Below, in pieces: positions 20,140-32,155 of a stretch of 64,000 nucleotides of DNA. The stretch is from Natrialba sp. SSL1 (GTDB lineage Archaea; Halobacteriota; Halobacteria; Halobacteriales; Natrialbaceae). The DNA lies in assembly GCF_001861355.1 (NCBI RefSeq), contig NZ_MASN01000030.1, forward strand, positions 124,001 to 188,000, written 5' to 3'. The translations under genes and the position numbers were made by a program. The first letter of the stretch is position 1; the number at the start of each line of letters is the position of its first letter. Below the pieces are notes generated by a model. The model made no database searches. It saw nothing but the letters and a program-made list of their open reading frames with translations, and was not told the DNA's origin.

Positions 20140-22881
20140 ATGAACAGCACGACACCAACGCGACGCGCGCCCGACTCGCCCGAACCGATCCGTGTCCTCT
20201 TCGTCGACACGGACGAGCGGACTGCCCGCGCCGCAACGGCCGTGTTCGACGCCGAGTTCGGTATCCACGCACAGGTCGCTTCCTCGACTGACGACGATGC
20301 GTTCGCGGAGCGTCTCGAGGTGATCGACTGCGTCGTCACCGGCCACAGCCCGTCGACGAGTTCCGATCGGTCGCCGCTCCGGGCGGTTCGAGCGGTCGAT
20401 TCCGACCTCCCCGTCGTCGTCTTCTCGACGGTGCGTGATGAGGAGCGCATCGAGCACGCGCTGTCGGCGGGTGCGACGGATTTCGTGCGGATCGATGCGG
20501 ACGACGCCGGCTACTGGACGCTCGGAGCCCGAATCAGCGCCCTCGTCGGGAGCGAACGAGTAGACGAGGACACGGCGCGCGCGGGCCGTCCGTCCGACAC
20601 TGCCCTGGTCGGCAGCAGCGTCCTCGACGAATCGCTCACGTTCACCGCCGTCAGCGCGAGTCACGCCGCTCTCCACGACAAACGGCGAGCGTCCCTGGTC
20701 GGACACTCGTGGACCGGCGTCTTTCCCGACGACGAAACGACGGTACTCGAGTCCGTTGCCCAGCGAGCACGGACGCGCGGGTCGGCGGTCGGGTCGGTGA
20801 CTGCCCTGCGTTCCGCACAGCGATTCCCAGCGCTCGTCTCGCTCGTTCGCGTTCGGGCGGCGTTCGTCTGTACGGTTTTCGACCAGAGTTGGCGCGAGGG
20901 TGGCAGGGGGATGGGAGAGGAAAGGAGGGAGGGCGAAGAAGGAGAGGGGGATGGAGATGGAGATGGAGATAGAGTTAGAGAACAGACAGTCCGCCCCACG
21001 GACGGCGAGGTGGGAAGGACAACACACGGTATCGAGCGAGCGCTGCTCGGCATCGAATCGCTCGCAAACACGCGTGTCGGGCCGGATGAATCAGGAACGA
21101 GGGAGTTCTGTGAGACAATCGTCGACACCGTCGAGAGCGGCAGTCGGCCCGGGAGGGGGCAGTCGGTGACGGCCACGACGGCCACGACGACTGTCGCGGC
21201 AGTCTACTGCTACGACGAGGAGAGCGATGCACTCCGCCGGCAGGCAACAACGCGCGCCGGCGAGTTCGACCGAACCGTCTCACTCGTAGCGCAGACACTC
21301 CCGCTCAGTCGTGCCTTTCTCGACCGAGAACCGGTGTTCGTCGCCGGCCTCCAGCGCGGGACTCCGACGACGGTGACGGATCCGAGACGTGCGTGCGGGC
21401 TCGTCACACCGATCGGGTCACACGGCGTGCTCATTGCCGGCGTCCACGAGAGCGCAGCCCAGAGACGATCACAGTCAACGTCGGGTCCCGACGGGGATGA
21501 GACACCGCGGCTGACGGCGCTCGATCGCGCGTTCGTTCGTCTCGTCGGCGCGACTGCAGGGACAGTACTGGATCGCGTCGCTGCGAAGCGCGACCTGGAC
21601 GCCTGTGAGACGGACCTCGACGCTGCGACCGAATCGGTCGACTCGCTCACCGAGACGATCGAACTCGTGTGCGCCGTCGCCCGGGCGATCAGCACCGCCT
21701 GGACGCGTGGCGAACTCGAGACGCGCGTCTGTGACTCACTCATTGCGAGCGAGCGCTACACCGTCGCCCGAATCGCAGCCCTCGACAGCGCCGGCGAAAC
21801 GGTCACGGTTCGAGACCGCGCCTGGGCAGGTGCCCAGCAAGAACTCGAGTCCCCCGACGCGAGCGTGGACGCGCTGGTCGACGAGGGCGAGCCGATGGCG
21901 TCGACGCTCCGAACGCTCGAGCCGTGCACGCACCGACGACTGCTGTCAGATCCGGGGGCGATCGACCAACACTGGCGACAGACCGCAGTGAGCCAGGGTA
22001 TCCGCGCGGTCCTCGCCGTACCGCTCGTCTTTCGCGAGCGGTCCTACGGTGGCCTGGCGGTGTACAGCGAGCAACCGACCGCCTTCGACACGGACGAGCG
22101 CCGACTCATTGCCGACCTCGGCATGTGGGTTGCCCAGGCGAGCAACGCCATCGAAACGCGCACGGCACTGGTCGGACACAGCGAGGTCGAACTCGAGTTC
22201 CGGCTCCGCGGACCGGACATCGAGTTGCTCGAGTGGGCGCGGGAGACGGGTGGGACAGTCGAGTTCGAAACGGCCGTCTCACGGCCGGATGGCTCGATCC
22301 GGGGCTTCTTCACGGTCGAGAACGCCACCGAGGAGACGATCCTCGAACTGGCCGCACGCTCACCGTCGGTGTCGGACGCTCAACTCGTCACCACCCACGG
22401 CGACAGACAGTTGTTCGAGTGTACGCTCACCGAGGAGACGCTCGTCGCACGGCTACTCGAGTACGGCGTCGTCCCGCGGCGGATTTCGGCGGGCGAAGAG
22501 GCGAGCGAGGAGGCGGGCCGACTGGTCGTTTCGCTGCCCGCACAGACGGACGTCCGGGAGTTCGTCGAGTTCGTCAGCCGGCTCTATCCCGATTCGACGC
22601 TCGTGCGGCGACGCGAGCGAGAAGGCGACGCCAGACCCGGCTATGGGTTCCGGGCGGAACTCGAGTCGGTGCTAACGGCGCGCCAGCACGAGGCACTCGA
22701 GACGGCGTTCGTGAGCGGCTACTTCGACATTCCGCGGGAGACGAGTGGCGCGGCGGTCGCCGAGATGCTAGAGATTACGCAGCCGACGTTCAACACGCAT
22801 CTCCGCGTTGCAGAGCGGAAGCTGCTGGAGCTGGTGTTTGCTCGGGACGAGGGCAGCGACGAGGAGCGTGCTGGAAGGTGA
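20140..22881 (+). CDS. Bat-like regulator: pseudo-receiver-PAS-GAF-GAF-Bat-HTH_10
   Basis: This is a 913-aa protein. Residues 17-130 resemble a CheY-type receiver (RVLFVDTDERTA; LPVVVFSTVRDE; ALSAGATDFVRID), but where the phospho-accepting Asp should be the sequence is DCVVTGHSP, so Gly replaces Asp. A PAS-like region is at 145-250, a purine-encoded acidic/Gly insert at about 252-285, GAF-like domains at about 310-470 and 500-655, the Bat domain to 830 and HTH_10 at 845-905 (LTARQHEALETAFVSGYFDI; EITQPTFNTHLRVAE). It is a paralogue of 12781-15450 with a different N-terminus and likely works without phosphorylation. A small RHH-like gene follows at 23502. Confidence 0.87.
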   Translation: MNSTTPTRRAPDSPEPIRVLFVDTDERTARAATAVFDAEFGIHAQVASSTDDDAFAERLEVIDCVVTGHSPSTSSDRSPLRAVRAVDSDLPVVVFSTVRDEERIEHALSAGATDFVRIDADDAGYWTLGARISALVGSERVDEDTARAGRPSDTALVGSSVLDESLTFTAVSASHAALHDKRRASLVGHSWTGVFPDDETTVLESVAQRARTRGSAVGSVTALRSAQRFPALVSLVRVRAAFVCTVFDQSWREGGRGMGEERREGEEGEGDGDGDGDRVREQTVRPTDGEVGRTTHGIERALLGIESLANTRVGPDESGTREFCETIVDTVESGSRPGRGQSVTATTATTTVAAVYCYDEESDALRRQATTRAGEFDRTVSLVAQTLPLSRAFLDREPVFVAGLQRGTPTTVTDPRRACGLVTPIGSHGVLIAGVHESAAQRRSQSTSGPDGDETPRLTALDRAFVRLVGATAGTVLDRVAAKRDLDACETDLDAATESVDSLTETIELVCAVARAISTAWTRGELETRVCDSLIASERYTVARIAALDSAGETVTVRDRAWAGAQQELESPDASVDALVDEGEPMASTLRTLEPCTHRRLLSDPGAIDQHWRQTAVSQGIRAVLAVPLVFRERSYGGLAVYSEQPTAFDTDERRLIADLGMWVAQASNAIETRTALVGHSEVELEFRLRGPDIELLEWARETGGTVEFETAVSRPDGSIRGFFTVENATEETILELAARSPSVSDAQLVTTHGDRQLFECTLTEETLVARLLEYGVVPRRISAGEEASEEAGRLVVSLPAQTDVREFVEFVSRLYPDSTLVRRREREGDARPGYGFRAELESVLTARQHEALETAFVSGYFDIPRETSGAAVAEMLEITQPTFNTHLRVAERKLLELVFARDEGSDEERAGR

Positions 22882-25147: not shown

Positions 25148-26347
25148 CTACCGTAACTGCCAACTCTCGCGTCGATCCGTCCCCCACTCGCCGAAGTCGA
25201 ACACCCAGTACAGCGCGTCGATACCGGTCTCGATCTGGTAGGTGATCGTCCCCTCGTACGTCTCGCCGGCATCGATCGTCACACCGTCGAAATCGGCGAG
25301 CGCGCGCAACACGCCGGGCGCGGCCGCCTGGCTCCATCCGAACTCGTCCGTGAGTCTGACCTGCGCTGGCGTGAGGTCGCGGTCTCGAGTACTCGTGTTT
25401 TCGACCGTCGCACTGACGGCGACGGTTTCGTGGCCCTCGTCGGACTGCATGAACCCGCCGAGGTTGTTTCCGTGCTGGAGGCCGTCGACGGTGACTGTGA
25501 GTCCGTCGTGTTCGACTGCTTCCGAGAACCCGAGCGAGTCGGGCAGCTCCTGCTCGAGGACCGTCATGTCTGACTCGTCACGCTCGGTACCGAGATCGAC
25601 GAGCGCAGACGCGCTTTCGTCGGTGTCGTCGCTGTCGTCGTCACCGTTCTCATCGCTGCCGTTACCCGAATCCGCATCGCCGTTCGGGTCCGTCACTGTA
25701 TCACCTGTCTCAACCGGCTCGAGTTCGAGCACGAGTGCGTTGGTATCCACGTCGGCGTCGACCGCGTAGCCAGCCGTCGTACGGATAACCTCTCCGGGTG
25801 CGAGTCTGGCCGCCTCGAAGGCGGGCGGTGGCGACAGTGGGGTCGCAAGCGGCTCTACAGGCTCCTCATCGGCCAGGAGTGTCATCTCGAGCACATCGCT
25901 GACGATTTCGACGGCCGTCGCTCCAGTGTCGGTGTCAGTATCTGTGTACTGTGCCGCAACATCGACAACCGCGACCGCCGCGCCGCTTCCCACTTCGAGG
26001 GCGTCGCCGTCAGCATCGACGATATCGCCCGTCACGTTGCTGTCGGCGACGACGACCGCGAGGTCACCGATCTCGAGTTGCTGGCCGCGCTCGAACTCGA
26101 GTGTGGTTGTTGTTTCGTCAGTGTCGTCGGTGTCGTCGGTATCATCCGCGTCGTCAGTAACATCGCCGTTCGTCGTGTTCTCGTCCTCGTCTCGGCCGGA
26201 CGCACCTCTCTCGGAATCGTCGGTCGCGTTCTCCGCATCGGCGTCGGCTGGGGAGGGCTCGTCCGGGCCGTCGCCGAAACAGCCGGCGATGGCAACCGCA
26301 CTGCTAGCGACCGCAGCGAGGTACGTTCGACGGTCGGGTCGCTCCAT
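25148..26347 (-). CDS. Lipoprotein with two DUF4352-like beta domains
   Basis: This 399-aa protein begins MERPDRRTYLAAVASSAVAI then AGC, a Tat-type signal with lipobox (Cys23). A Asp/Thr/Glu linker (DDTDDTDDTDE) follows. Two immunoglobulin-like beta regions (about 90-220 and 270-390) have the pattern of DUF4352 proteins, for example LTVTVDGLQHG, VAVSATVENTSTRDRDLTPA and TYEGTITYQIETG. They are joined by a second acidic linker. The protein should sit outside the membrane, lipid-anchored. The function is unknown; DUF4352 proteins often carry ligands or stabilise other surface proteins. Confidence 0.78.
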   Translation of the reverse strand: MERPDRRTYLAAVASSAVAIAGCFGDGPDEPSPADADAENATDDSERGASGRDEDENTTNGDVTDDADDTDDTDDTDETTTTLEFERGQQLEIGDLAVVVADSNVTGDIVDADGDALEVGSGAAVAVVDVAAQYTDTDTDTGATAVEIVSDVLEMTLLADEEPVEPLATPLSPPPAFEAARLAPGEVIRTTAGYAVDADVDTNALVLELEPVETGDTVTDPNGDADSGNGSDENGDDDSDDTDESASALVDLGTERDESDMTVLEQELPDSLGFSEAVEHDGLTVTVDGLQHGNNLGGFMQSDEGHETVAVSATVENTSTRDRDLTPAQVRLTDEFGWSQAAAPGVLRALADFDGVTIDAGETYEGTITYQIETGIDALYWVFDFGEWGTDRRESWQLR

Positions 26348-26691: not shown

Positions 26692-27408
26692 ATGCCAACC
26701 CAGTGTTCCTACTGTGCGGCCACCATCCCCGACGACGAGTACGAGGACCACCTCCTCCGAGCCCACGCAGACGGCCTCTCACGAATCGACCAGCGGCGCG
26801 TCGGCCTCGAGCCAACTGGGTCGGTGTCTGGCGCACGCACGAGCGCGAACGCGAACTCGAACTCGAACTCGAACTCGAACTCGAACTCGAACTCGAGTAC
26901 CCCTCGGATTCGAACGGCGGCGGTGTACGCCAGCGTCGGTCTCGTCCTGCTGCTGGTCGCGGTCGGCTACGGTTTGGTCTTTCTCGACATCGATGATCCC
27001 GCCAGCGCGGCGGCCGTCCAGCCCGATCCGACGGCGCAGATCCACGAGCACGGGCAGCTAACCGTCCAGTACGACGACACCGTCGTCGACTTCGACGAGC
27101 CGCAGTACATCGAGGCCGACGAGTGCTTCCACTTCCACGCGACTGACGACGCGACGGTCTGGCACGCCCACTGCGAGGACGTGACGATCGAGTACGCACT
27201 CGAGACGCTCGGGATGGAGGTCACCGCGGATCGGTTCGCGATCGGCGAGCAGGAGTACGCCGAAGCCGATGGCGACGCGGTCAGTGTCACCGTCGACGGC
27301 GTCGAGGTCGATCCACAGGAGTACGTCCTCGAGGGTGCCGGCCCGGTCGCTGACGCGCAGGCTGGCGCGGGTGACAACGTCGAAATCGTGGCCGAATCGG
27401 GTGGCTGA
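26692..27408 (+). CDS. Membrane protein with N-terminal C2H2 finger and external His/Cys domain
   Basis: This is a 238-aa protein. C5-x2-C8-x11-H20-x4-H25 forms a C2H2 zinc finger. A linker carries Asn-Ser repeats (about 53-69) from a hexanucleotide tract. One transmembrane helix (VYASVGLVLLLVAVGYGLVF) lies near 80-100. The C-terminal domain has an unusual cluster, ADECFHFHATDDATVWHAHC, with four His and two Cys in 18 residues, likely a metal site (copper or zinc is only a guess). One orientation puts the finger inside and this domain outside. No known family was recognised. Confidence 0.7.
   Translation: MPTQCSYCAATIPDDEYEDHLLRAHADGLSRIDQRRVGLEPTGSVSGARTSANANSNSNSNSNSNSNSSTPRIRTAAVYASVGLVLLLVAVGYGLVFLDIDDPASAAAVQPDPTAQIHEHGQLTVQYDDTVVDFDEPQYIEADECFHFHATDDATVWHAHCEDVTIEYALETLGMEVTADRFAIGEQEYAEADGDAVSVTVDGVEVDPQEYVLEGAGPVADAQAGAGDNVEIVAESGG
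26852..26893. repeat. CGAACT hexanucleotide repeat, seven copies
   Basis: Seven exact CGAACT units in a row encode the Asn-Ser linker of the zinc-finger membrane protein. Because the unit is six bases, gain or loss of copies changes linker length by two residues without a frameshift. Confidence 0.9.
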
Positions 27409-27969: not shown

Positions 27970-29871
27970 ATGAGAGACCACGTGGGTGTCCTCGCGGTGA
28001 TCGCTTTGCTGGTGTTAGGCGGCGTTGTCGCCGCAACCGGCTCCGTCACCAACGGCGACGACCAAACCGTCGTCTACAGTCTCGACGACGAGCGATGCGA
28101 CGTGAGCGAACACCTCGACGAAACCATGGATCTCACGACCGAAACCGACGAGCGTGAGAGCCAGAGCCAGAGCGAACGCGACCGATCGAACGCCGATCAT
28201 CGCGAGAACGAACGCGAGTCCGACACAAGCGAGCGCGAGCACGACCGTGACAACTCGAGTGCACTCGACGAGCACGAGCGCGACGAAAGTGAGCGCGACA
28301 GCAGTCAGGACAGCGAGTACGACCGCGACAATAGCGAGTCGGAAGTGAACGACCGCGACGAGGAGCGCGACGCGAGCAGCGAGCGCACCGCCGAGGAGCG
28401 CGACGAAAGCGACCGCGACCGCAGCGAGCGCGAGGTCGACGACACGGACGTCGAGACCGACGAGCGCGAATCCGACGCCGAGCGCGAGACGGCCGAACGC
28501 GAGGAGAGCGAGTCGGACGCCGACAGCACGCACAGCGAGCACGACGCAGGCGAGCGCGAACGCACGGCGGACGAGAGCGACGAACGCGACGCTGAGCAAC
28601 GCAGCGACAGCGACGAGAGCGAACGGGCCGCAGACGAGCGTACGAGCGACCGCAGCGAGGCCGAGGTCGACTCCGACGATGTGGACCGTGAGGTGACCGA
28701 ACAGGTACAGCACGACACTGAAAGTGACGACCGCGAAACCGAGTCGACTGACACAGACGCTGACGAGCAGTCGACCGAAGAGCGCGAGCGCACCGACGCC
28801 GAGCGCAACACCACGGACCGCGACAGCGAACGGGACTCGAGTACGAGCGCGGATCACGTGGCGTCGACGAGTGATCGCGACGCGATCCAGTTCGATGCGG
28901 ATCGCTTCGAGCGTGGAGAGAGTGAGTCGGCAGGTGCGGACGAACAGCGCGACCGCGAGAGTGAGCGTGAGAGTGAAGACGACCACGAAGAATCGAGCGA
29001 CGAGACGGAAAGCGAACGCGAGACAGAGCGCACCGACGGCGAGCGCGCAGAAAGCGAGCAGACGGAGAGCGACGACGTCAGCAGTGAGCGCGACCGCCAC
29101 GAGTTCGACAGCGAGTTCATCCGCAGCGAGCAGTTCGATTCGAGCCTCGACAGCACCGAGCGCAGTCAGCAGGGTGCGGAGCGGACCACCGACGAGTCGG
29201 ACCGCGACGCGAGCGCAGCGGAACGCGACAGTTCCCGCAGCGAGTTCGATAGCGAATCGGTCGCGGGCGACCGCAGCGAGACCGAACGTGATCAGCACGA
29301 CCGCAGCCTCGAGACCACGGACAACGACTCAGCGCACGATCAGCGCGAGCGGACCGAGCGCGACGAAACGAGCGACCGCTCCCTGAGCGAACGCGACGGC
29401 AGCCGGTACGCCGCAGACCTCGACGAGAGCGAGCGCGACGCCAGCGAGACCACCGCGTCCGAGCGCGACACCGAACGCGAACGCGACAGCGGCAGGGACG
29501 AGTACGAGGACCGGGATACCGAACGCGAGCGCAACAGCGACCGTGAGCACGAGCGCGACGAATCCGAACGCGAGCGCAGCGAGCGTGCCGACGAATCCGA
29601 ACGCGAACACGAACGCAGCGAGCGCGAACACGAGCACGACCTCGAAACCCGCGACAGCGACCGCAGCGAGTCCGACAGCGACGCCGAGCGCGAACAAAGC
29701 GAAACCGAACGCGATCAATCCGAGCGCGAACAGACGACCGACTCCGACTGCGAGACGATCTCCGAACGGCTGATCGTCACCGGCGACAGCATCCAGGAAC
29801 TCGAGCGTAAGGGCATCATCACACCTAACGACGACGGCACCTTCGACGTCGACGTGAGTGAACTCGAGTAG
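27970..29871 (+). CDS. Exported low-complexity Glu/Arg/Asp/Ser-repeat protein, copy A
   Basis: This 633-aa protein starts with MRDHVGVLAVIALLVLGGVV, a Sec-type signal or anchor. From about 50 to 590 it consists of Ser, Glu, Arg, Asp and Thr in loose SERD/ERDES/DSER words, with almost no hydrophobic residues. It has only two cysteines, Cys43 and Cys594, one on each side of the repeat. The last 40 residues (ERLIVTGDSIQELERKGIIT and an acidic end) look like a small folded unit. A tandem paralogue follows at 30191. The protein resembles calcium-binding or spacer proteins such as Sdr or dentin phosphoproteins only in composition. The function is unknown. Confidence 0.8.
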   Translation: MRDHVGVLAVIALLVLGGVVAATGSVTNGDDQTVVYSLDDERCDVSEHLDETMDLTTETDERESQSQSERDRSNADHRENERESDTSEREHDRDNSSALDEHERDESERDSSQDSEYDRDNSESEVNDRDEERDASSERTAEERDESDRDRSEREVDDTDVETDERESDAERETAEREESESDADSTHSEHDAGERERTADESDERDAEQRSDSDESERAADERTSDRSEAEVDSDDVDREVTEQVQHDTESDDRETESTDTDADEQSTEERERTDAERNTTDRDSERDSSTSADHVASTSDRDAIQFDADRFERGESESAGADEQRDRESERESEDDHEESSDETESERETERTDGERAESEQTESDDVSSERDRHEFDSEFIRSEQFDSSLDSTERSQQGAERTTDESDRDASAAERDSSRSEFDSESVAGDRSETERDQHDRSLETTDNDSAHDQRERTERDETSDRSLSERDGSRYAADLDESERDASETTASERDTERERDSGRDEYEDRDTERERNSDREHERDESERERSERADESEREHERSEREHEHDLETRDSDRSESDSDAEREQSETERDQSEREQTTDSDCETISERLIVTGDSIQELERKGIITPNDDGTFDVDVSELE

Positions 29872-30190
29872 AGGCTGGCCACGAACCGGGTCGGTGGGTG
29901 TCCGACGCTGCAACTGTTTTTCATCGCCAAACTGGGTGACAGATGGAAGTGCAGTACGTCTGCGTACAACGCAAGACATCCGTACGAGCAACGAGGCACC
30001 TGCACGAGCACAAGCGCCCGAACGAGTACGACACAATGGCCACCCGAACACACCATCTCGGCAATCCGTTCGTCGTCAGATCGGCGTCCCCAGCCCCCAA
30101 CGCGCCCGTCCTTTCCCGGTTCTTCGTCTCCCGTTCTTAAGACCCAGTGGCGAAGACAGCAGTGGCCTACGGGATAGGTTTCGAGAGCAC
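29872..30190. other. Spacer between the two repeat-protein genes
   Basis: About 320 bp. CTGTTTTTCATC at 29912-29923 may terminate copy A. TTCTTAAGACC at 30134-30144 is a TATA-like site about 50 bp before the ATG at 30191, so copy B probably has its own promoter and a leader of about 25 nt. A 66-codon frame at 29943 is not convincing. Confidence 0.45.
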
Positions 30191-32155
30191 ATGACCCGAA
30201 AACTGACAGTCATCACGGTAGTCGGTCTCCTGCTGCTTGCCAGCGTCGTTGCCGTCAGCGGCGCCGCCGGTGCAAGCCCCGGCGCGGCCATGCAGGTTGA
30301 CGACCGCTGTGACGAAGGCGAATCCGTCGACGACAGTACGGCAACCGTCGACGAGGCAGAAGACAGCGAGAGCGACAGCAGTAGTGACCGAGAACGAACC
30401 AGTAGCGACCAGCGCGAATCGAGCACCGAAAGCGAACTGAGTGAACTCGACAGCGAGAACGACAGTTCGACCACCGTCGACGAGTCCGAGCGCGAACAGA
30501 GCGACAGCGACAGCGCGAGCGACTCGAGTACCGAGTCCGATCAGAGCAGTTCCGACGTGAGCGATCGCGACGAACAGCGCGACGCGAGCAGCGACTACGA
30601 CGTCAGCACCGTCGACGAGGAAGAGCGCTCGGAGAGCCAGAGCGAGATCGACGACGCTGATGTCGAACTCGACGAAAGCGAGAGCGACGTGGACCGCACC
30701 GTCAGCGAGCGCGAGGACAGCACGGCAGACCGCGACAGCACGCACAGCGAGGAGAACGCGAGTGCAAGCGATAGCGAGTCCGAGGAGAGCGAGTCGAGCG
30801 CGAGCGACAGCGACGTCGCCACTGACGAGAGCGACAGCGAATCCGAAGAGAGCGAACGCGACCGCAGCGAGAGCGACATCGACTACGACGACGCCGACCT
30901 CGAGGTGAGCGAGCGCGACTCCCACTCGATCGATACGAGCGAAATCGAGAGTGAACTCGAGGAAAGCGATCACGACGAGCAGACCCTCGACGCATCGGAC
31001 CGCGACTTCAGCGAGCAGTCACTCGACGAGTACGACAGCGAGTCCGAGGAGAGTGCAAGCGACGAGAGCGAACACTCTGAGAGCGACAGCGAATCCGACC
31101 ACGACGAGCGCGACGAGACCGATCGCGGCGAAAACGACCGCGATACCTTCGACCGGATCGAAAGCACCAGCGACAGCGACTCCGAGGAGTACACGCAGAG
31201 CGACAGCGAGGCAAGCGAGAGTGACAGCGAGGCAAGCGAGCACTCCACGGACGAATCCGAACGGGACGCCAGCGAGCGCGACGTCTCCCAGCAGGACGCC
31301 ACCAGCGCTGACAGCGAGCACGACCACTCCGAAGAAGGCGACCTCGAGTTCGACGCGAGTCAGACCGAGCGCCACGGTGCCGAACTCACCTTCGACGAGA
31401 GCGAGCGCGACGCCAGTGATGCCGACAGCGACCGGAGCCACAGCGAGTCCGCGAGCGACGAAAGTGACAGCACGAGCGCCGACAGTGAGCGCACGCAGGA
31501 TGAGAACAGTCTGGAGACGACGGACAACGACAACGAACAATCGAGCAGCGAGTTCGACGAAAGCGAGGTCTCGAGCGACCGGACCGTGAGCGAGCGCGAT
31601 CTGAGTACGCACAGCGACGAGAGCGACCTCACCGAAAGCAGCCTGAGTGAATCCAGCGAGTCCGAAAGCGAGACCGCCAGCGAGAGCGATACGGGCGTCG
31701 ATACGGTCGAGAACAACGATATCGAGACCGAATCCAGCAGCGACGAGGACGCTAGCAGCGACCTGAGCGAGAGCGACCGCAGCGAGAGCAGCGACGACAG
31801 CGAACGCGAGCACAGCATCGATCAGCACGACAGTGAGAGCGATGTCGACAACCGGGAAAGCACCCGCAGCGACTCCGATGCTGACTCCGAACGCACGACG
31901 CTCCAGACGGAGTCCGACGAGAGCAGCTTCGTCGAGTCCTACGACTCGAACTGCGGCCATGCCAGTTCGGACGGCGACGACGAGTCAGGCGCAGCAGCGG
32001 ATTCGGATGCAGATGACGAGGCTGACGAAGACGATGCAGACGAGGCGGATGAGGACGACAGCGACGACGATGACGACGAAAACGAGAACGCATCGAGCAT
32101 CTCCGCAGCCGTCAACTCCGCACTCGACTCGCTACAGTCGTTCGTGTTGGGGTGA
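30191..32155 (+). CDS. Exported low-complexity Ser/Asp/Glu-repeat protein, copy B
   Basis: This 654-aa protein starts with MTRKLTVITVVGLLLLASVV, a Sec-type signal. The body (about 45-580) is made of Ser, Asp and Glu in SES/DSE/SDES words, with far less Arg than copy A. Words shared with copy A in the same order (SLETTDND, DSTHSE, DDxDVExDE) show that the two are diverged tandem duplicates. Again there are two cysteines only, Cys40 and Cys588. The C-terminus after Cys588 is an Asp/Glu run and then a short hydrophobic helix (SISAAVNSALDSLQSFVLG). It is extremely acidic and must be secreted or cell-surface bound. Confidence 0.8.
   Translation: MTRKLTVITVVGLLLLASVVAVSGAAGASPGAAMQVDDRCDEGESVDDSTATVDEAEDSESDSSSDRERTSSDQRESSTESELSELDSENDSSTTVDESEREQSDSDSASDSSTESDQSSSDVSDRDEQRDASSDYDVSTVDEEERSESQSEIDDADVELDESESDVDRTVSEREDSTADRDSTHSEENASASDSESEESESSASDSDVATDESDSESEESERDRSESDIDYDDADLEVSERDSHSIDTSEIESELEESDHDEQTLDASDRDFSEQSLDEYDSESEESASDESEHSESDSESDHDERDETDRGENDRDTFDRIESTSDSDSEEYTQSDSEASESDSEASEHSTDESERDASERDVSQQDATSADSEHDHSEEGDLEFDASQTERHGAELTFDESERDASDADSDRSHSESASDESDSTSADSERTQDENSLETTDNDNEQSSSEFDESEVSSDRTVSERDLSTHSDESDLTESSLSESSESESETASESDTGVDTVENNDIETESSSDEDASSDLSESDRSESSDDSEREHSIDQHDSESDVDNRESTRSDSDADSERTTLQTESDESSFVESYDSNCGHASSDGDDESGAAADSDADDEADEDDADEADEDDSDDDDDENENASSISAAVNSALDSLQSFVLG

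Follow-up and report, generated by a model that had tools for sequence, protein, structure and literature searches.

Mirror complementarity about a pair of cysteines suggests a giant antiparallel hairpin in two putatively exported haloarchaeal proteins

The subject of this report is a tandem pair of genes, referred to as A and B, found in a 64,000-nucleotide stretch of DNA from Natrialba sp. SSL1 (contig NZ_MASN01000030.1, positions 124,001 to 188,000). This whole stretch is called the window, and its own numbering is used throughout. Gene A lies on the forward strand at 27970..29871, and its product of 633 residues consists of a signal-like N-terminus, Cys43, a long chain that is proposed here to form a hairpin, Cys594, and a conserved tail of 39 residues. 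Gene B, also on the forward strand at 30191..32155, encodes 654 residues arranged as a signal-like N-terminus, Cys40, the putative hairpin chain, and Cys588, followed by a variable acidic tail that ends in a hydrophobic stretch. The start codon of B is the ATG at 30191, and a listed open reading frame of 765 residues beginning with GTG at 29858 represents an upstream extension. All features of the two genes given below are on the forward strand unless noted.

An earlier sequence-only reading of this DNA described A and B as exported proteins of common descent, each rich in Ser, Asp, Glu, Arg, and Thr and each containing exactly two cysteines. This description holds. The cysteines are spaced by 551 residues in A and by 548 in B, and the five named amino acids account for 79% (A) and 78% (B) of the chain between them. 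The two proteins are homologous along the whole stretch, as judged from both BLASTP (E=1e-13, residues 1-190, 3 gap positions) and HMMER (1.4e-58, covering residues 5-596 of A), and the hydrophobic, signal-like segment that opens each of them is consistent with export. Neither protein has a match in Pfam, NCBIfam, or PDB sequences. A phage origin was considered and rejected, the phage search having given no match. The C-terminal unit of A, which the same reading had singled out as one to be searched for, did not recur: the tail, ETISERLIVTGDSIQELERKGIITPNDDGTFDVDVSELE (29752..29868), is found nowhere else in its genome, and the idea of a mobile C-terminal sorting tail is thus ruled out. Long hydrophobic open reading frames occupy the reverse strand opposite the two genes at 28015-29298 and 31019-31960, and are probably a by-product of GAC/GAG/AGC/CGC codon use.

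A set of 36 copies, 15 of A and 21 of B, was extracted, and both cysteines are present in every intact copy. The codon for Cys43 of A (28096..28098) is kept in 15/15 copies, and that for Cys594 lies at 29749..29751. The corresponding codons of B are positioned at 30308..30310 (Cys40) and 31952..31954 (Cys588). These two cysteines define a mirror about which the remainder of the chain is organized. In the mirror test employed, the acid profile at position i is correlated with that at position c-i, with c equal to Cys1+Cys2 at offset 0; two residues opposed in this manner are termed a rung, and the cysteines themselves constitute rung 0. In the B alignment, a strongly negative acid correlation falls precisely on c = Cys1+Cys2, and conservation is mirrored there as well. 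Indeed, offset 0 gives the most negative acid-acid correlation in 36/36 single sequences, with values ranging from -0.38 to -0.64 and lying at about -0.5 or lower in every copy free of arm deletions. For the Natrialba sp. SSL1 proteins, the correlations are -0.586 (B) and -0.545 (A); in 400 fourth-order Markov simulations per protein, taking the best of 501 offsets, no value was lower than -0.36 (B) and -0.41 (A), respectively. Nothing comparable emerged when the mirror test was applied to seven other long proteins of the window, for which the best values were -0.11 to -0.26.

The segments opposed in this way are, in A, two arms of 255 residues (28099..28863 and 28984..29748) separated by a central or turn region (28864..28983) and, in B, two arms of 272 residues (30311..31126 and 31136..31951) on either side of a putative G-E-N turn at the exact midpoint (31127..31135, index 273-275). 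Rungs with two acidic residues number only 3/274 in B and 9/276 in A from Natrialba sp. SSL1. Shuffling one arm raises the mean to 41 (B) and 45 (A), with minima of 23 and 28, respectively, in 100,000 shuffles. When all rungs are pooled, 155/8,316 are acid-acid as compared to 1,283 expected. Antiparallel complementarity about the cysteine pair, resolved to individual residues, is thus practically certain for both A and B, and the stretch between the cysteines is neither random nor a featureless repeat.

The pairing extends beyond a simple opposition of acid and non-acid, with Ser preferred opposite Asp and either Arg or a hydrophobic residue preferred opposite Glu. Enriched rungs include E:R (+1.6 bits), E:hydrophobic (V/L/I/F/Y, +1.5 bits), and D:S (+1.3 bits), together with a small number of H:T pairs. 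The acid pairs are depleted (D:D -3.5, E:E -2.9, and D:E -2.3 bits), as are R:S, S:S, and R:R. There is one conserved exception. The rung at index 88, formed by Glu128 (30572..30574) and Asp500 (index 460, 31688..31690) of B, is the only one with two acids in 33/33 sequences counted, and its residues lie within the conserved motifs NDRDEQ and SDTG. This rung could be a cation-binding site, an idea for which no single position offers a better target. A palindrome or mirror repeat in the DNA itself was considered and rejected, since base complementarity about the centre does not consistently exceed that of synonymous-codon shuffles, with individual z values reaching about 3.6 in either direction at various offsets. 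The Ser codons opposite Asp are mainly AGC, as are Ser codons generally.

The rungs also covary between species. Where acids have changed on both sides at offset 0, 1502 cases keep one acid per rung and 132 break the rule, as compiled from B copies with identities below 75%. These cases were counted per pair of copies and do not represent independent events; the control offsets are mostly near parity or reversed. On a tree, 43 swaps of an acid from one arm to the other were counted at offset 0 as compared to 6-17 at other offsets. The same type of count bears on whether A and B might instead pair with each other as an antiparallel heterodimer. Such an arrangement is suggested by the tandem genes, which are of similar length and nearly always co-occur, and by A x B pairing that is far above random (70 and 116 two-acid rungs of 2,794). 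Each chain nevertheless pairs better with itself, leaving 45 (B) and 78 (A) two-acid rungs of 2,794, and the A x B combination performs no better than cross-species B chimeras, which have 8.8 two-acid rungs per 254 as opposed to 3.9 within a B chain. Additionally, one genome (G246) encodes B with no detectable A. A heterodimer is, in light of these counts, highly unlikely.

The sequence-only reading had further proposed that the length between the cysteines is conserved. For B this holds even better than that reading could show, the spacing being 548 in 20/21 copies, yet it is not absolute since one copy has 536. The 20 copies of constant spacing align without gaps down to 42% identity between the cysteines, and for the most distant B pairs register 0 outscores all shifts in nearly all 50-residue windows. 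The B tail beyond the second cysteine varies from 26 to 77 residues across copies, and serves as an internal control that shows the freedom with which sequence of this kind can change in length. The spacing in A is conserved within a range of 541-551 in 14/15 copies (541, 544, 545, 546 in three, 547 in six, 549, and 551), the last, at 504, having suffered a deletion of 47 residues. Nearly all of the length differences in A are confined to the centre, with insertions and deletions at core index 270-300, and the register of arm 1 is unbroken in 11/13 A copies compared. A 30-residue window was flagged in one arm each of the near-identical Natronococcus copies G240/G241 (at its inner end) and of G040, such that confinement to the centre is not absolute.

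Taken together, the complementarity, the covariation, and the fixed length argue for an ordered, paired structure, and they contradict the disordered chain envisaged in the sequence-only reading. A disordered polyanion tethered by its two cysteines, with the symmetry a relic devoid of structural meaning, would agree with a composition typical of disorder and with the failure of AlphaFold2 to find order. It would leave without explanation both the compensatory changes between species and the constancy of 548 residues in B alongside tails of 26 to 77, and is regarded as exceedingly improbable. The free changes in length and the lack of pairwise constraints that characterize intrinsically disordered low-complexity regions are not observed in A or B.

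Three copies have lost residues from one arm only: 12 from arm 1 of the G246 B protein, 7 from arm 1 of the G031 A protein, and 47 from arm 2 of the G004 A protein. In each case the outer rungs stay at offset 0 and the inner rungs move, to -12, -7, and +47, respectively, which matches the prediction of a paired geometry. Note that these deletions are near multiples of 2.36 residues, a bias that recombination between repeats would also give. A periodicity near 2.36 residues, both in acids and in rung size, is seen in the A and B cores, but is not clearly above nulls. A fixed repeat unit was likewise discarded as a candidate, given that periods of 2.36, 7, and 14 are weak and do not clearly surpass Markov nulls in long-range coherence.

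The geometry of the pairing was assessed by logistic regression with local neighbours included. The cross-arm coupling is -3.3 (A) and -4.0 (B) at the facing residue, -1.0 to -1.9 at +/-2, and zero at +/-1, for A and B alike. Contacts at 0 and +/-2 with none at +/-1 are made on the same face, and are the signature of a two-stranded antiparallel beta ladder. Both families additionally have a positive term at -3 (+0.6 to +1.0). An alpha-helical antiparallel hairpin or coiled coil might be entertained given that A is rich in Glu and Arg and that a period of 2.36 could be the second harmonic of about 3.5. Apart from the term at -3, however, there is no clear coupling at +/-3/4, the pairing rule is obeyed at all chain positions, and a hydrophobic seam is absent, making a helical arrangement highly improbable. 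A distinction between hydrogen-bonded and non-hydrogen-bonded rungs by parity was tried and rejected, the difference of 47 versus 8 by count becoming 19 versus 15 by distinct rung and not being significant.

On the basis of these considerations, A and B are each probably an intrachain antiparallel beta hairpin closed by a terminal disulfide. The middle ~550 residues of the exported protein would fold as one giant hairpin, in which an outgoing arm of ~273 residues leads to a turn, formed by a central G-x-N in B and by a looser loop in A, and the chain then returns so as to place residue i opposite residue (Cys1+Cys2)-i. Two carboxylates would then meet in very few rungs, an acid of one arm nearly always lying opposite Ser, Arg, a hydrophobic residue, or another non-acid (D:S, E:R, E:V/L/I/F/Y). 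The two cysteines, as rung 0, would form a single disulfide that locks the open end outside of the cell. The suggestion in the sequence-only reading that a disulfide might close the chain on itself fits well with the position of the cysteines, which face each other at the end of a chain-long pairing, and its alternative of linking chains end to end is less likely than a closed hairpin. If extended, the two-stranded ribbon would measure ~90 nm (274 x 0.33 nm).

The same i to c-i complementarity, with tolerance of length changes at the centre, would be expected of an antiparallel homodimer, in which a pair of identical chains would be aligned along their full length (~180 nm) and joined by interchain disulfides between Cys1 and Cys2' and between Cys2 and Cys1'. 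Against such a dimer, a turn-like residue occupies the exact midpoint of B, where index 273 is Gly in 15/20 and Asn in 5/20 copies, within a D-R-G-x-N-D-R motif whose reciprocal D:R pairs, D271:R277 and R272:D276, flank the turn. Tethering, moreover, should favour pairing within a chain. The homodimer is therefore considered unlikely.

Several points weigh against the intrachain beta hairpin. The sequences by themselves do not distinguish it from the homodimer, and the counts, drawn from only 36 related sequences, are not independent. Ser, Asp, Glu, and Arg have a low propensity for beta structure, and long two-stranded ribbons are as a rule unstable alone. Since deletions in one arm are tolerated in three copies, not every copy depends on a strict register. 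Finally, AlphaFold2 provided no structure for either the full B protein (10 sequences, pLDDT 38) or its central 121 residues (20 sequences, pLDDT 56), although a failed prediction counts neither for nor against a fold. The sequences directly show the complementarity and its register, the covariation, the conserved length, the tandem pair, and the island, whereas export, the beta fold, the disulfide, the preference for intrachain pairing, and the biological role are inferred.

With respect to that role, the picture of a stiff, exported polyanion whose two ends differ points to a fibre at the surface or in a matrix, an assignment that we offer tentatively. In A the conserved tail, and in B the hydrophobic end, might serve to anchor such a fibre, which is possibly held by an adjacent histidine-rich membrane protein. 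The gene for this protein (26692..27408, forward strand) is near A in all genera. Its product combines a CxxC/HxxxxH finger at the N-terminus with a single transmembrane segment and an outer domain in which HxH, CxHxH, and HxHC motifs are invariant. Strong orthologues (E below 1e-38) occur in 16 genomes, every one of which carries A or B; nothing above the cut-off was found in Pfam or NCBIfam. Within it, at 26830-26900, is a simple-sequence (SN)n insertion, without which the proteins of other genera align. Also in the vicinity are genes for a DUF4352 protein with an RR and lipobox-like N-terminus (25148..26347, reverse strand), relatives of which reside in the same island, and for a GAF-BAT-HTH_10 (Bat-type) regulator (20140..22881, forward strand), relatives of which are in the island of most genera. 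The genes 3' of B are common to Natrialba only. In N. chahannaoensis (L022 12183-13430), there is no match to the AhpC/TSA gene that lies 3' of B in Natrialba sp. SSL1, and the cupin gene aligns in several pieces, perhaps because of a frameshift.

Matches to A or B were found in 18/125 genomes of the family, spread over 7/29 genera; 17, including that of Natrialba sp. SSL1, have intact copies. Among 146 genomes sampled across the order, this genome alone matched at E 1e-10. The matches include N. hulunbeirensis and N. chahannaoensis of the same genus, and full-length relatives in Natronococcus as well as on a plasmid of Natronorubrum bangense. With few exceptions, carriers possess a single A gene together with one or two B genes. 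The genera of the named carriers are known from soda lakes, and the genes are absent from some alkaliphiles of the family. In G246 (L073), the genome lacking a detectable A, the sole B to differ from 548 has its spacing of 536, which suggests, from a single case, that loss of A accompanies a relaxed constraint on B length. The eighteenth genome, G069 (L082/L044), retains only a truncated and broken remnant of A, and the membrane protein orthologue is missing.

A literature search for a counterpart of A and B yielded no known example and only one analogy, the charge zipper. In TatA and the pestivirus Erns anchor, a hairpin of short amphipathic helices at the membrane is kept by a ladder of complementary charged residues (PMC8002126). 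A and B likewise appear to oppose complementary charged residues across an antiparallel hairpin. They differ in having ~270 rungs, beta-like coupling, probable export, and D:S as the commonest enriched pair, and their cores show neither a hydrophobic face nor helical coupling of the type expected for amphipathic membrane helices.

Other long surface proteins share some of these features. The staphylococcal Sdr/Clf stalks consist of repeated SD dipeptides, vary in length, and lack a partner arm. Like A and B they are exported, long, acidic, and rich in Ser and Asp, but A and B have a fixed length and halves that complement each other; indeed, the spacing of 548 in 20/21 B copies and the position-specific sequence, gap-free at 42% identity, are unlike an SD-repeat stalk. 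Halomucin-type acidic surface proteins of haloarchaea are, like A and B, very acidic and secreted by halophiles, and we know of no self-complementarity in them. The free-standing beta stalks SasG and Aap are arrays of repeated domains, and resemble A and B in the possible function of a long, single-layer beta fibre on the cell surface; in A and B one chain, without a match in Pfam, NCBIfam, or PDB, would make one hairpin. It is reasonably likely that A and B represent a new protein architecture, namely a single polar hairpin of ~270 rungs with a residue-pairing rule (Asp with Ser, Glu with Arg or a hydrophobic residue) and one terminal disulfide, forming a haloarchaeal fibre of ~90 nm. If the hairpin is real, haloalkaliphilic archaea would have in it a dedicated component of their surface or matrix, and its simple pairing code could be applied to the design of long, salt-stable polyanionic protein fibres. 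More broadly, low-complexity proteins classed as disordered may conceal long-range pairing that structure predictors miss and that the single-sequence mirror test detects here, the putative hairpin being legible from the primary sequence in much the same way as an RNA stem.

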